Assembly (NCBI RefSeq): GCF_014083985.1
Contig: NZ_CP046907.1
Coordinates: 5,528,501 to 5,592,500 of the forward strand
DNA: 64,000 bases
Source: Streptomyces sp. SCUT-3
GTDB taxonomy: Bacteria > Actinomycetota > Actinomycetes > Streptomycetales > Streptomycetaceae
Direction: 5' to 3'
Shown piece after piece: positions 18,295 to 60,352 of the stretch. A program made the position numbers and the translations under genes. The notes under the pieces were generated by a model that saw only the letters and a list, made by a program, of their open reading frames with translations, was not told the DNA's origin and did no database searches. Each line of letters opens with the position of its first letter. Position 1 is the first letter of the stretch.

Positions 18295-19056
18295 TCAGGG
18301 CTCGACGAGCCCGGCGCGGATGGCGTACCTGGTCAGCGCCAGCCGGTCGCGCAGGCCGAGCTTCTGCAGAATGTTCGCCCTATGACGTTCGACGGTCTTG
18401 ACGCTGATGACAAGAGTCTGAGCAATTTCTTTCGACGAATGTCCTTCGGCGACCAGTTTCAGGACTTCTTCCTCACGCACCGTGAGCACCCGTTCCGGGA
18501 CCTCCCCGCCCCGGTGCACGTGCTCCAGGTAGGTGCGGATCAGAGCGGTGACCGCCCCCGGGTACAGGAACGGCTCCCCGCGCATCGCGGCCCGGCACGC
18601 CTCGACGAGGTCCCGGTCGGCCACCGACTTCAGCACGTAGCCCGAGGCGCCCGCCTTGAGGGCCTCGAAGAAGTACTGCTCGTTGTCGTACATGGTCAGG
18701 ATGAGGATGCGCAGTCCCGGGTGGGCGCGGGAGAGCTCCCGGGCGGCCTGCAGGCCGGTCATGCGGGGCATGGCGACGTCCAGGACGGCCAGGTCGACCG
18801 GATGCCTGCGCGCCTGCTCGACGGCCTCGGCCCCGTCGCCCGCCTCCGCGACGACCGTCAGGTCCGGCTCGCTGTCGAGGATCAGCCGGACGCCCCGGCG
18901 GACCAGGGCGTGGTCGTCCGCGAGGAGGATGCGGGTGGGGGCGGGCCGCCCGGCGTCGGCCGGGCCGGGGGGCCGGGCGGTGTCCGGACCGGTGGGTCGG
19001 GGGGCGTCCGGGGGCGCGGGGGTGCGTGCCGGGGGGTTCGGGGAAGGGCTGGACAC
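18295..19056 (-). CDS. NarL/LuxR-type response regulator
   Basis: 253 residues. After a ~40-residue Pro-rich leader, a receiver domain starts at TRILLADDHALVRRG (acidic pair D47/D48) with the phosphoacceptor D93 (VLDVAMPRMTG). A C-terminal LuxR helix-turn-helix at about 187-245 follows (LTVREEEVLKLVAEGHSSKEIAQTLVISVKTVERHRANILQKLGL). The GTG start lies 3 bp after the histidine kinase stop, so the pair is coupled. Target unknown; the palindrome upstream of the kinase is a candidate. Confidence 0.93.
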   Translation of the reverse strand: MSSPSPNPPARTPAPPDAPRPTGPDTARPPGPADAGRPAPTRILLADDHALVRRGVRLILDSEPDLTVVAEAGDGAEAVEQARRHPVDLAVLDVAMPRMTGLQAARELSRAHPGLRILILTMYDNEQYFFEALKAGASGYVLKSVADRDLVEACRAAMRGEPFLYPGAVTALIRTYLEHVHRGGEVPERVLTVREEEVLKLVAEGHSSKEIAQTLVISVKTVERHRANILQKLGLRDRLALTRYAIRAGLVEP

Positions 19057-19059
19057 GGG

Positions 19060-20064
19060 TCACTCGTTCCTGTCGCCTGTACCTGTGGGTGTGCGGTCGC
19101 CGGACGAGGGGGCGTCCGACGGGACGTCGACCGGCACCTGCAGCAGGACCTCGGTGCCGCCGCCGGGCCGCGGACCGATGCTCAGCCGGGCCCCGACCAG
19201 CAGGGCCCGCTCCCGCATCCCGCGGATCCCCGCCCCCTCCCGGACGATGCCCGGCCCTAGGCCGTCGTCGGTGATCCGCAGTTCCACGCAGTCCGCCGTC
19301 CGGCGCAGGGACACCTCGGCGGTGGACGCCTCCGCGTGCCGGGCCACGTTGGTCAGGCCCTCCTGCGCCACCCGGTACAGGACCAGTTCCACCTCGCGGT
19401 CCAGGGGCGGCAGCCCGGGCGGGAAGCGCCGCCGCACGGTCATCCCGGTGTGGGTGGAGAACTCCGTCGCCAGTGAGGTCAGGGCACTGACCAGGCCGAG
19501 GTCCTCCAGGACGCCCGGCCGCAGCCTGCGGGCGAGCCGGCGCACCTCGTCGAGGCTGCCGCGGGTGGTCTCCTGCGCGTGCCCGAGGTCCTCCAGGAGG
19601 TCCTCCGGGGCCCGGTCGGCCACCCGCTTGAGCTCCAGCAGGACCGCGGTGAGGCTCTGGCCGACCTCGTCGTGCAGCTCCTGCGCTATCCGCCGCCGCT
19701 CGGCCTCCTGCGCCGACAGGGCGCGCGCGTTGCTGGTGCTGCGCTCGGCCTCGAGCCGGTCCAGCATCTCGTTGAACGTGCGCAGCAGGTCGGGGATGCC
19801 GCCGTGGCCGGTCACCGGCAGGCGCTGGCCCGGACGGAGCAGGTCGATGGTGGTCATCATCCGGGTCAGCCGCTCCAGCGGGGCCAGGCCGATGCGCAGC
19901 AGCACCGCGTTGGCCAGCAGCATGACGGCCAGCCCGCCGGTGAGCACCACGGCCTCGGTGAGCAGGATCGGGACCGAGACGGTCACCGGGGCCCACAGCA
20001 GCACCGCGGTGGCCACGGCCAGCACCAGGGCGTTGAGCAGAAAGATCCGCCAGAACAGGGACAC
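19060..20064 (-). CDS. NarL-family sensor histidine kinase
   Basis: About 334 residues. Two membrane segments (RIFLLNALVLAVATAVLLW and a second near 38-58) are separated by a very short loop, followed by a HAMP-like linker (APLERLTRMM...FNEMLDRLE). The HisKA_3 dimerisation box AQELHDEVGQSLTAVLLELKR has phosphorylated H131, and a HATPase domain ends at GAGIRGMRERA. The lack of an extracellular sensor loop suggests sensing in the membrane or via a partner. The GTG at 20064 was chosen because GAGGAGG lies 12 bases upstream and the membrane helix starts at once; the frame is open further upstream. Confidence 0.86.
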   Translation of the reverse strand: MSLFWRIFLLNALVLAVATAVLLWAPVTVSVPILLTEAVVLTGGLAVMLLANAVLLRIGLAPLERLTRMMTTIDLLRPGQRLPVTGHGGIPDLLRTFNEMLDRLEAERSTSNARALSAQEAERRRIAQELHDEVGQSLTAVLLELKRVADRAPEDLLEDLGHAQETTRGSLDEVRRLARRLRPGVLEDLGLVSALTSLATEFSTHTGMTVRRRFPPGLPPLDREVELVLYRVAQEGLTNVARHAEASTAEVSLRRTADCVELRITDDGLGPGIVREGAGIRGMRERALLVGARLSIGPRPGGGTEVLLQVPVDVPSDAPSSGDRTPTGTGDRNE

Positions 20065-20415
20065 GACGAAACAGGACCTCCTCGCCCCCCACTGTTCCAC
20101 GGGAACCGGGGGTCCCGGCCGCCGCGTCCGCGGGATGCACCGCCCCCCGGCGGGAAATGGGTGCCAGCACCCATTTCCCGCGGCGGCCTCAGCGGGCATG
20201 GTGGGGATCATGAGTCTGCCTCTGTCCCGCACCGCGAGCGGTTCGCCGCCGGGCGGCCCGCGCACCCCCTGAGGGGCCCGCGAACGGCATCGCCGGCGAC
20301 GGTCCGCCGACGGTGCGACGACGAGGCCGCGGCGGGCCCCGGCCCGCAGGCAGGAACCATTTCGCGCTTCTTCGCGCATCTCCCATTCCTTCGCACGGTG
20401 AGGAACCCACCAGCC
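20065..20415. other. Divergent intergenic region holding a 15-bp perfect palindrome
   Basis: 351 bp without a supported gene separate the histidine kinase from the second DksA-like gene, so it should carry promoters in both directions. The striking element is GCGGGAAATGGGTGC (20150-20164), repeated inverted at 20167-20181 with a 2-bp spacer. It is the only AT-richer patch of the region. No coding signal is visible. Confidence 0.6.
20150..20181. promoter_or_regulatory. Perfect 15-bp inverted repeat, candidate operator
   Basis: The arms GCGGGAAATGGGTGC and GCACCCATTTCCCGC flank a CA spacer. It is 86 bp upstream of the kinase start and 235 bp upstream of the divergent DksA-like gene, with no U-run after it, so a dimeric regulator site is more likely than a terminator. 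The binding protein is unknown; the neighbouring NarL-type regulator is the first candidate. Confidence 0.55.
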
Positions 20416-20745
20416 ATGACGTCCCTGGACACCGAACGCCCCGACAGCCCCCACGAACGCGTCTCCGCGCACGACGCCCGCCAGTGGCTGGCCCGCGAGC
20501 GCAACGCGCGCCTGACCCAGCTCGACGCCATCGAGCAGAGCGGCCAGAAGGACGCCGACGAGCTGATGGCCGCGCAGACGGTCTCGCTCCGTCGGGTGCT
20601 GAAGGAGATCGACCACGCCGAGCAGCGCCTGGAGGCCGGGAAGTACGGCGTGTGCGAGGAGTGCGCCAGGCCCGTCGCCCCGGAGCGCCTGGAGATCCTG
20701 CCCTACGCGCGCTGCTGCGTGTCCTGCCAGAAGAAGGCCGTGTGA
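20416..20745 (+). CDS. DksA/TraR-type zinc-finger protein (second of three)
   Basis: 109 residues, a compact member of the DksA/TraR family. A helical hairpin (ARQWLARERNARLTQLDAIE and SLRRVLKEIDHAEQRLEAGKYGVC) leads into a C4 finger: C80-x2-C83 and C101-x2-C104 (an extra C100 gives CCxxC). The context YGVCEECARPVAPERLEILPYAR is canonical. It is the first gene of a rightward run with the third DksA-like gene, the MreB-like gene and SecDF. GAGGAA precedes the ATG at ~10 bases. Confidence 0.9.
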   Translation: MTSLDTERPDSPHERVSAHDARQWLARERNARLTQLDAIEQSGQKDADELMAAQTVSLRRVLKEIDHAEQRLEAGKYGVCEECARPVAPERLEILPYARCCVSCQKKAV

Positions 20746-20820: not shown

Positions 20821-21224
20821 GTGAGCACCGACACCGCCCCCGACACCGCTCCGGGCACCGTCAACGCCGGACTGTCGCCGGTACAGCTGGCCGCGGCGCG
20901 CGACCTGCTCGAGGAGCAGCGCGGATCCCGCATCGAGCAGTTGCGACGACTGCAGCAGCACGACGGCGGGACCGGCGGAACGGACGGGCCGGACGGGCCG
21001 GACGGTGACGGGGCCGGCGCCGGCGCCGGTGCGGCCCGGATCAGGCTCGTCGACTGGGCCCGCATGGTGCTCGCCGACGTCGACGCGGCCCTCGCCCGGA
21101 TGGACGAGGGCCGGTACGGCGTGTGCGGGATGTGCACCGGGCCGGTCGAGTGGGACCGGCTGCGTGTGGTGCCCAGGCCCGCTACTGCTCGCGCTGCCAC
21201 CCGGCGCGCAGGGCGGGGAGGTGA
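20821..21224 (+). pseudogene. DksA/TraR-type zinc-finger protein (third), frameshifted near its end
   Basis: From the GTG at 20821 (GGAGGA ten bases upstream; an in-frame GTG at 20812 is too close) the frame gives a helical N-terminus, a Gly/Asp/Ala linker and the first finger half YGVCGMCTGPVEWDRLRVVPR. It then runs off into PATARAATRR. One base later, from 21177, the frame reads ARYCSRCHPARRAGR and stops at 21224. This restores the second CxxC of the finger and creates a GTGA overlap with the next gene. A one-G deletion in the AGG at 21175-21177 explains everything. As given, the frame ends at 21243 without the second zinc half-site. Confidence 0.8.
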
Positions 21225-22108
21225 CGCCCCCGCGTCCGGGTGAGGGGGCGGGCGGGGAGGGCCTCCCCTTCCCCCGGGCGCGGTCGAACGGGGCGCCGGG
21301 GGCCGCGCAGCCGGCGCGGGGGGACCTCGCGGCGGGGCTGGCGATCGACATGGGCAGCGCCCGTACCCGGGTGTGGTCCCGGGACGGGGGCCTCCTGGCC
21401 GACATGCCCAGCACCGTCCTCACCGGGGAGACGGCCGGCCGCCCGGTGAGGCGCGGCCGGGTCGTCGACGTGCCCGGCTGCGCCCGCATGCTGCACCGGC
21501 TGGTCGGCGACCGCGCCGCGCGCCGCCGCCACCGGCCGGTGATCGTCCTGAGCTGCCCGGTGCTGTCCGAGCAGGACTACCGGGCGGCCGCGGTCCGCGC
21601 GCTGTCGGCCCTCGGGCCGAGCACGGTGCTGGTGATCGACAGCGCCCGGGCGGCGGCCCTGGGCGCCCGCGCCGACCTCGCGGACCGCCGCCCCCTGCTG
21701 GTGGTCGACGTCGGGGCGGGCCTGGTGGAGGTCACCCTGCTGGCGGACGGGCAGGTGGCCCGCGCCCGGCAGGCCCGGCTGGGCCTGGAAGACATCGGCC
21801 CGGCCCTGCCCGTCGGAAGGATCGTCAGGGCCGTCACCGATATGGTGCTGGACATGCTCAGGGAGGACGGGACCGCGTCGACGGTCGACGCGCTGGACCG
21901 CGGGCCGCTGGTGACCGGCGGCGGAGCCCTGCGCCCGGAGATCGTCTACCGCATCGCCACCCTGCTGGACACCCCGGCCCGTCCGGCCCCCGCACCGGCC
22001 ACGGCCGTCGTGCGCGGTGCGGCCGCGGCCCTGCTGTCCGGACCCGGCCACCCGGCCCTCGTCGCCTGCGACGCCCGGGACGGAACCCCCCAGGGCCTCC
22101 GGCGGTGA
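21221..22108 (+). CDS. Short MreB-like actin-fold protein
   Basis: 295 residues, shorter than MreB (~340-345). The actin/Hsp70 nucleotide-binding landmarks are present: phosphate-1 LAIDMGSARTRVW (about 40-52), VIVLSCPVLSEQDYRAA, phosphate-2 LLVVDVGAGLVEVTLLADG and adenosine motif PLVTGGGALRPEIV. The deficit in length falls in the part that would form subdomains IB/IIB, by my reading. From memory, S. coelicolor has a third, short MreB-like protein in a similar DksA/SecDF setting. The GTG start overlaps the restored stop of the third DksA gene. A role in wall growth or sporulation is inferred from MreB only. Confidence 0.8.
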   Translation: MTPPRPGEGAGGEGLPFPRARSNGAPGAAQPARGDLAAGLAIDMGSARTRVWSRDGGLLADMPSTVLTGETAGRPVRRGRVVDVPGCARMLHRLVGDRAARRRHRPVIVLSCPVLSEQDYRAAAVRALSALGPSTVLVIDSARAAALGARADLADRRPLLVVDVGAGLVEVTLLADGQVARARQARLGLEDIGPALPVGRIVRAVTDMVLDMLREDGTASTVDALDRGPLVTGGGALRPEIVYRIATLLDTPARPAPAPATAVVRGAAAALLSGPGHPALVACDARDGTPQGLRR

Positions 22109-25152: not shown

Positions 25153-25157
25153 CACGG

Positions 25158-25194
25158 CCGGTCCCGGGCACCGCGCCGCGGTGCCCGGGACCGG
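25158..25194 (+). terminator. Strong hairpin terminator after secDF
   Basis: A perfect 17-bp stem (25158-25174 with 25178-25194, core GTCCCGGGCACC) with a 3-nt loop starts 6 bp after the secDF stop codon, in a convergent gap. Confidence 0.75.
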
Positions 25195-25250
25195 CGCCCG
25201 GGACCGGCCTCCGGAACCGGGCGCGGCACCCCGCCGCGCCCCGTCCCTTC

Positions 25251-46845: not shown

Positions 46846-47024
46846 GCACGCCTGCATATCATCCGCCGCCGCGGGGGCCGCAGGGCAGGAGCGGCGGGGA
46901 CCGCACTGCCGCCGCGGGACGGCCGGGCGGACGGGCCCGGCCGTCCGCATGCCGGACCGGAAGGGGCCGCCTTGTGAGAAGGGCCGCCTTGTGAGCACGA
47001 CACGGGGGGAACTAGGGTCACTGT

Positions 47025-47195
47025 GCCTTGGTGTTCGGGAAGCCGGTGAGAAACCGGTGCGGCCCTCGCCACTGTGATCGGGAAGCATCCGCTCCACCCC
47101 CGCACGGGGAGCCACTGGGAAAGCGCGCGCAGGCGCGGCCTCCCGGGAAGGCGGAACGGAGGCGTCGACCCGTCAGCCAGGAGACCGGCCGAGGC
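47025..47195 (+). ncRNA. Cobalamin (B12) riboswitch
   Basis: The conserved elements occur in order: GAAGCCGGTGAGAAACCGG (47050s), GCGGCCCTCGCCACTGTGA, AAGC...GAGCCACTGGGAA (47108-47121), GGGAAGGCG, and the B12 box AGCCAGGAGACCGGCC (47175-47190). It lies 45 bp before cbiM, so adenosyl- or methylcobalamin should repress cobalt uptake. The kissing-loop part and the expression switch were not folded. Confidence 0.93.
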
Positions 47196-47238
47196 GTGTC
47201 CGTCCATCCACGAGGTGTTGGAGAGGGTCCGTCCAGCC

Positions 47239-56725: not shown

Positions 56726-56767
56726 GCGGCCCCGGACCGGGAGGGGACGGACCCGGTCCGGGGCCGC
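56726..56767 (-). terminator. Hairpin terminator after the fasciclin gene
   Basis: Perfect 16-bp arms GCGGCCCCGGACCGGG (56726-56741) and complement (56752-56767) with a 10-nt loop, 40 bp downstream of the fasciclin stop on the minus strand. Confidence 0.7.
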
Positions 56768-60265: not shown

Positions 60266-60286
60266 TCTCCCCCCGCCCAGGCGGTC

Positions 60287-60318
60287 GAGGGCCCGCACCG
60301 TGCGCGGTGCGGGCCCTC
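60287..60318 (+). terminator. Strong hairpin terminator after the cold-shock gene
   Basis: Perfect 13-bp arms GAGGGCCCGCACC (60287-60299) and GGTGCGGGCCCTC (60306-60318) with a 6-nt loop, 21 bp after the stop. Confidence 0.85.
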
Positions 60319-60352
60319 GTGTGCCGATCCCACACCTCCGGAAGGCCCGTCC

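Follow-up and report, generated by a model that had tools for sequence, protein, structure and literature searches.

The perfect dyad at positions 20150 to 20181 of the window (the whole 64,000-nucleotide stretch of Streptomyces sp. SCUT-3 DNA that was analyzed) is probably the operator of an operon of DksA-like genes of the SCO6164/6165 type, read by the response regulator GarR, which would activate the dksA promoter. The core of the dyad is conserved in the corresponding gap of related loci, stands at fixed spacings from promoter-like hexamers and is nearly restricted to this locus. Apart from its unusual symmetry, it would be nothing out of the ordinary: the operator of a NarL-type regulator, located in a divergent gap.

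The gap runs between the GTG start of a histidine kinase gene on the minus strand (20064) and the ATG start of a dksA-like gene on the plus strand (20416), and is thus divergent, as the initial annotation had said. The genes of the locus are as follows.

18295 to 19056, minus strand: NarL-type response regulator of the GarR type, the putative binder (domain match).
19060 to 20064, minus strand: histidine kinase of the GarS type, with HisKA_3 and HATPase_c domains (domain matches).
20416 to 20745, plus strand: dksA-like gene 1, zf-dskA_traR, 109 aa, the probable target (domain match).
20821 to 21243, plus strand: dksA-like gene 2, the zinc finger being out of frame in its second half.

The HisKA_3 kinase and the NarL-type regulator are adjacent on the same strand and face a divergent pair of DksA-like genes. 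Beyond this pair, the plus strand carries a reading frame that we take to be actin-like, for which no Pfam match was found, followed by a SecDF-like gene. By gene order and families, the counterpart of the locus in S. coelicolor is SCO6162/6163 (GarR/GarS) opposite SCO6164/6165; excerpts of two papers (PMC6629963, PMC11043171) give the order there as SCO6160 (secDF), SCO6161, SCO6162 (GarR) and SCO6163 (GarS), facing SCO6164 and SCO6165 (DksA-like), then SCO6166 (mreB/mbl2) and SCO6167. In dksA-like gene 2, the second zinc-finger cysteine pair (YCSRC; window 21090-21245) lies off frame from the first, seemingly by a single-base frameshift, for which a sequencing error is possible.

The dyad itself and its core are given below.

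20150 to 20181, no strand: perfect dyad with 15-bp arms and a 2-bp spacer, read as an operator; core conserved.
20157 to 20174, no strand: conserved operator core ATGGG-N8-CCCAT, exact in 74/86 loci and present in 86/86 as ATGGG-N8-CCNAT.

Re-reading the sequence returned the left arm GCGGGAAATGGGTGC (20150-20164), the spacer CA (20165-20166) and the right arm GCACCCATTTCCCGC (20167-20181), exactly as the palindrome had been described, with perfect symmetry over 15 bp and 90% symmetry across 20 bp. The dyad has a G+C content of 66%, against 76% for the window. The sequence GAAATGGGTGC occurs in the 6.08-Mb genome of the strain just as the two arms, and the dyad occurs once, which rules out a genome-wide repeat family; a search for the 24-bp dyad with up to three mismatches found it in 1 of 200 family genomes, namely the strain's own. 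The claim that such a palindrome is unlikely by chance stood in part. Perfect dyads with arms of at least 15 and spacers of at most 10 arose 0.04 times per dinucleotide-shuffled 64 kb, which would amount to about four per genome at 6 Mb, but the real window holds four of them (20150, ∼25157-25161, 56727 and 60286). Because three other places qualify, symmetry by itself is a modest argument, and the case rests on conservation.

The conservation was followed in the upstream regions of kinase homologs. Of 553 loci found by scanning species genomes, the best 80 were retained, mostly from Streptomyces and also from Kribbella, Amycolatopsis, Stackebrandtia, Asanoa, Saccharopolyspora, Antrihabitans and Phytohabitans; with 30 loci from family genomes (the strain's own included), and after regions with identical last 150 bases had been dropped, they gave 107 distinct upstream regions; a divergent DksA-like gene lies within 1.5 kb in 86 of these and not in the other 21. 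Within the 86 dksA-bearing loci so obtained, which are mutually related and whose counts are not independent cases, ATGGG-N8-CCCAT is found exactly in 74 (shuffle mean 0.06), and the same half-sites occur once in total over the remaining spacings between 0 and 29. With one base left free, ATGGG-N8-CCNAT is present in every one of the 86; among spacings of 0 to 20, only spacing 2 occurs besides 8, in 12 loci. Half-sites number 4.2 per region on average, compared with 1.1 in shuffles.

The conservation expected upstream of orthologous kinases therefore holds for the core and not for the 15-bp perfection, which is absent from the other 85 loci: 15 of 16 pairs are symmetric in the window, compared with 4 to 11 in those relatives. 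On this count, we consider the core to be old and the perfect symmetry to be peculiar to the lineage of the window among the loci seen. The right half in relatives is mostly CCGATGG, so that ATGGG recurs as a direct repeat 16 bp further on, and the window has CCCATTTCCC in its place, mirroring the left arm. Neither of the two stricter patterns used on family genomes (kinase-side and dksA-side) fits the window, owing to the difference in its right half.

It is very improbable that the dyad acts as an RNA hairpin, whether a terminator or a leader structure. It folds well as RNA on both strands (z ∼-2.3), but the conserved element is not the full symmetry, the gap is divergent and the dyad lies upstream of the inferred dksA start. 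As the initial annotation had pointed out, there is no U-run: neither a T-run nor a terminator-like site was found at the dyad, and an intrinsic terminator (a G+C-rich stem followed by a T-run) was not detected there. We rejected the terminator or RNA hairpin on the missing T-run and the unconserved symmetry.

The core kept in orthologous gaps, together with promoter-like hexamers at fixed spacing, bears out the initial suggestion of an operator. In the dksA direction, 22 bp separate ATGGG-N8-CCNAT from a downstream -10-like hexamer such as CACGGT, CATGGT or CAGGGT in 75/86 loci (shuffle mean 0); in the kinase direction, 22 or 23 bp separate ATGG-N9-CCNAT from a downstream hexamer such as CAGGCT in 72/86 (shuffle mean 0.03), and the core is there usually continued by CGAC, giving a -35-like TCGAC. 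Composites facing both dksA and the kinase are present in 64/86 loci (shuffle mean 0), with 67 to 88 bp between the box centers in most two-box loci. With the hexamers taken as -10 elements, the spacers would be 17 to 18 bp and both operators would be centered near -43.5 or -44.5. Sites centered near -43.5/-44.5 are common for NarL-family activators, DevR included, and the DevR box is placed near -42.5. The window has the core and the 22-bp distance to the hexamer toward dksA (20157-20174 to 20197-20202), which suggests the following promoter elements.

20174 to 20179, plus strand: position of the inferred dksA -35 hexamer, TTTCCC, a poor match, placed by the spacing of the conserved arrangement.
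20197 to 20202, plus strand: putative dksA -10 hexamer CATGGT, after a 17-bp spacer, with a hexamer in the matching place in 75/86 loci.

Transcription of dksA would then start near 20209, with the window site centered near -43.5 relative to this start. A 20-codon reading frame, MSLPLSRTASGSPPGGPRTP (window 20210-20272), begins at the inferred dksA start, and would be leaderless if that start is right.

In the mechanism that we favor, a GarR dimer would most likely sit on ATGGG-N8-CCCAT, with each subunit on one half-site; from a center near -43.5 relative to the dksA start, in contact with the -35 region, it would aid RNA polymerase at a promoter with the -10-like CATGGT but no good -35 element. 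We think it unlikely that the regulator instead represses the dksA promoter from the same operator by covering the -35 region. The core does touch the inferred dksA -35 hexamer, and the kinase-side TCGAC is a fairly good -35-like element, so that the promoter on that side does not strictly require an activator; however, the dksA-side -35 is poor both in the window and in relatives, and a center near -43.5 is the usual one for NarL-family activators.

In most relatives, a second box is likewise placed for garS, so that one regulator would govern the DksA-like genes together with its own operon. The window lacks the garS-side copy, its dksA-side copy being the perfect palindrome: no kinase-facing arrangement of core and hexamer was found in its gap. 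The initial annotation had suggested that the palindrome may control both directions. Kinase control through the single copy is not supported, as relatives use two separate boxes and the promoter arrangement in the window faces dksA only. That one perfect palindrome serves both dksA and garS is doubtful, even though full symmetry carries no polarity, no separate kinase-side box exists in the window and the dyad center lies ∼101 bp upstream of the kinase start, for the kinase strand has no -10-like hexamer 22 to 23 bp downstream and relatives carry one box per promoter even where the genes are apart. There is some chance, below even, that we are seeing an operator in remodeling: ancestrally, each promoter would have had one imperfect box, that of dksA overlapping the 16-bp direct repeat of ATGGG; this lineage would then have lost the box of garS, and its dksA box would have turned into a perfect 15-bp palindrome, perhaps by quasipalindrome-templated correction; a formerly self-controlled regulator would now mainly drive the DksA-like genes, or one symmetric site would serve both sides. 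Separately, an element GA[TC]AGT, often TGACCGACAGTGGAGG, is conserved ∼-43 to -54 upstream of kinase homologs in 53/86 loci, and is possibly a second kinase promoter.

The box is nearly restricted to the garRS-dksA locus. Kinase homologs of the garS type (E 1e-60) are found in 41/200 family genomes; the kinase-side box occurs in 19 of these 41 and in 3 of the 159 genomes without a garS homolog, and the dksA-side box in 18/41 and 1/159, a co-occurrence that is confounded, since genomes lacking garS have no such promoter. In the 3-kb stretches of the four loci from genomes without a garS homolog (L124, L125, L126 and L146), no garRS or DksA homolog was found. In the genome of the strain, the composite of box and -10-like hexamer occurs once, as expected for a local regulator, and there is one kinase of the GarS type at E 1e-60. 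Exact ATGGG-N8-CCCAT occurs at four places in this genome, the window site included, and we claim no regulon from them. One of the other three lies near a NrdR-like frame (L118, near 1501-1518) and may be a chance occurrence. The frequency of garS homologs is itself higher than the term "not widespread" in the available portion of PMC11043171 suggests, and some of the 41 may be paralogs.

Counting against the operator reading, the 21 loci without a neighboring dksA hold just 2 composites of the dksA type and 7 of the kinase type. Kinase homologs of this kind carry single boxes in Asanoa, Amycolatopsis and Stackebrandtia, and several others are boxless. In one genome (G075), the pair of DksA-like genes is found ∼3.5 kb past the regulator gene, still with a composite of its own that begins 118 bp before the start of the pair, and garS retains its kinase-side box. 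These cases suggest that the box accompanies the two-component system and not dksA alone. Together with the co-occurrence in family genomes and the single composite in the strain's own genome, they make GarR the best candidate binder. The earlier proposal of the adjacent NarL-type regulator as binder is thereby plausible and favored.

The closest solved relatives of the GarR-type regulator are VraR, NarL and DevR, and its recognition-helix region reads mostly KTV[EHQ]RHR[AE]N, with 16 of the 107 loci unread by this pattern and one reading otherwise. NarL 7-2-7 sites are arranged TACCCAT-N2-ATGGGTA. This arrangement was not found at the window site, where the half-sites face the opposite way with N8 between ATGGG and CCCAT; the box here is ATGGGTR-N4-YACCCAT, opposite to the E. 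coli sites in both orientation and spacing. The half-sites themselves, YACCCAT, resemble the E. coli NarL heptamers, and the TACCCAT of relatives fits TACYYMT as given in excerpts of PMC4886647. The operators of OsdR and DevR, read by NarL-family regulators, share the inverted GGG-N8-CCC with the box, OsdR having the consensus AGGGCCGATCGGCCCT in the part of PMC5069765 available; here, the AT/AT flanks and the inner bases differ, and the box is nearly confined to one locus. We rejected an OsdR site, as the core ATGGGTGCCAGCACCCAT does not fit AGGGCCGATCGGCCCT and has GGG-N8-CCC alone in common with it. More broadly, the operator is quite unlikely to be read by a regulator other than GarR, such as a paralogous NarL-type protein (SCO5785 type) or OsdR. 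An OsdR site is predicted near SCO6164 (in the accessible text of PMC5069765), and SCO5785 is 77% identical to GarR (according to excerpts of PMC11043171); however, that prediction concerns a different element, seen in 3 of the loci scanned, and the composite is single-copy in a genome with one such kinase.

In S. coelicolor, the kinase and the NarL-type regulator likewise face a DksA-like gene, with a few hundred bp in between, but in the excerpts of PMC11043171 sco6164 is not linked to GarR, and the window differs in having no garS-side box in its gap. The same excerpts propose three 30-bp MEME motifs upstream of garS as GarR sites, one of them also found before sco5784 and sco6424, and through these the operator may be partly in print already. 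They also consider sco6164 to be seemingly transcriptionally unrelated, which counts against GarR control of the DksA-like genes. In the available part of PMC6629963, SCO6160-6167 rise together in a sco5282 mutant, which counts for it, and DESeq2, one of three tests, was not significant for SCO6162-6166, which counts against it. No footprinted GarR site and no shared two-promoter arrangement were found among the titles and abstract openings listed by the literature searches. GarR/GarS affects antibiotic production, and the core offers a precise candidate binding site for this two-component system, along with the prediction, against the published description as transcriptionally unrelated, that GarR/GarS directly controls DksA-like proteins, which are of the RNA-polymerase-binding type. 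The displaced operon of G075 and the symmetrized site of the window would be natural variants for testing GarR control.

Elsewhere in the window, a long perfect hairpin directly follows the SecDF-like open reading frame (25157-25195) and is probably a terminator without a T-run. The perfect dyad at 56727 lies inside a tRNA-Arg call, another long perfect dyad, GAGGGCCCGCACC/GGTGCGGGCCCTC, spans 60286-60320, and a cobalamin riboswitch is found at 47012-47207 with a score of 86 bits.
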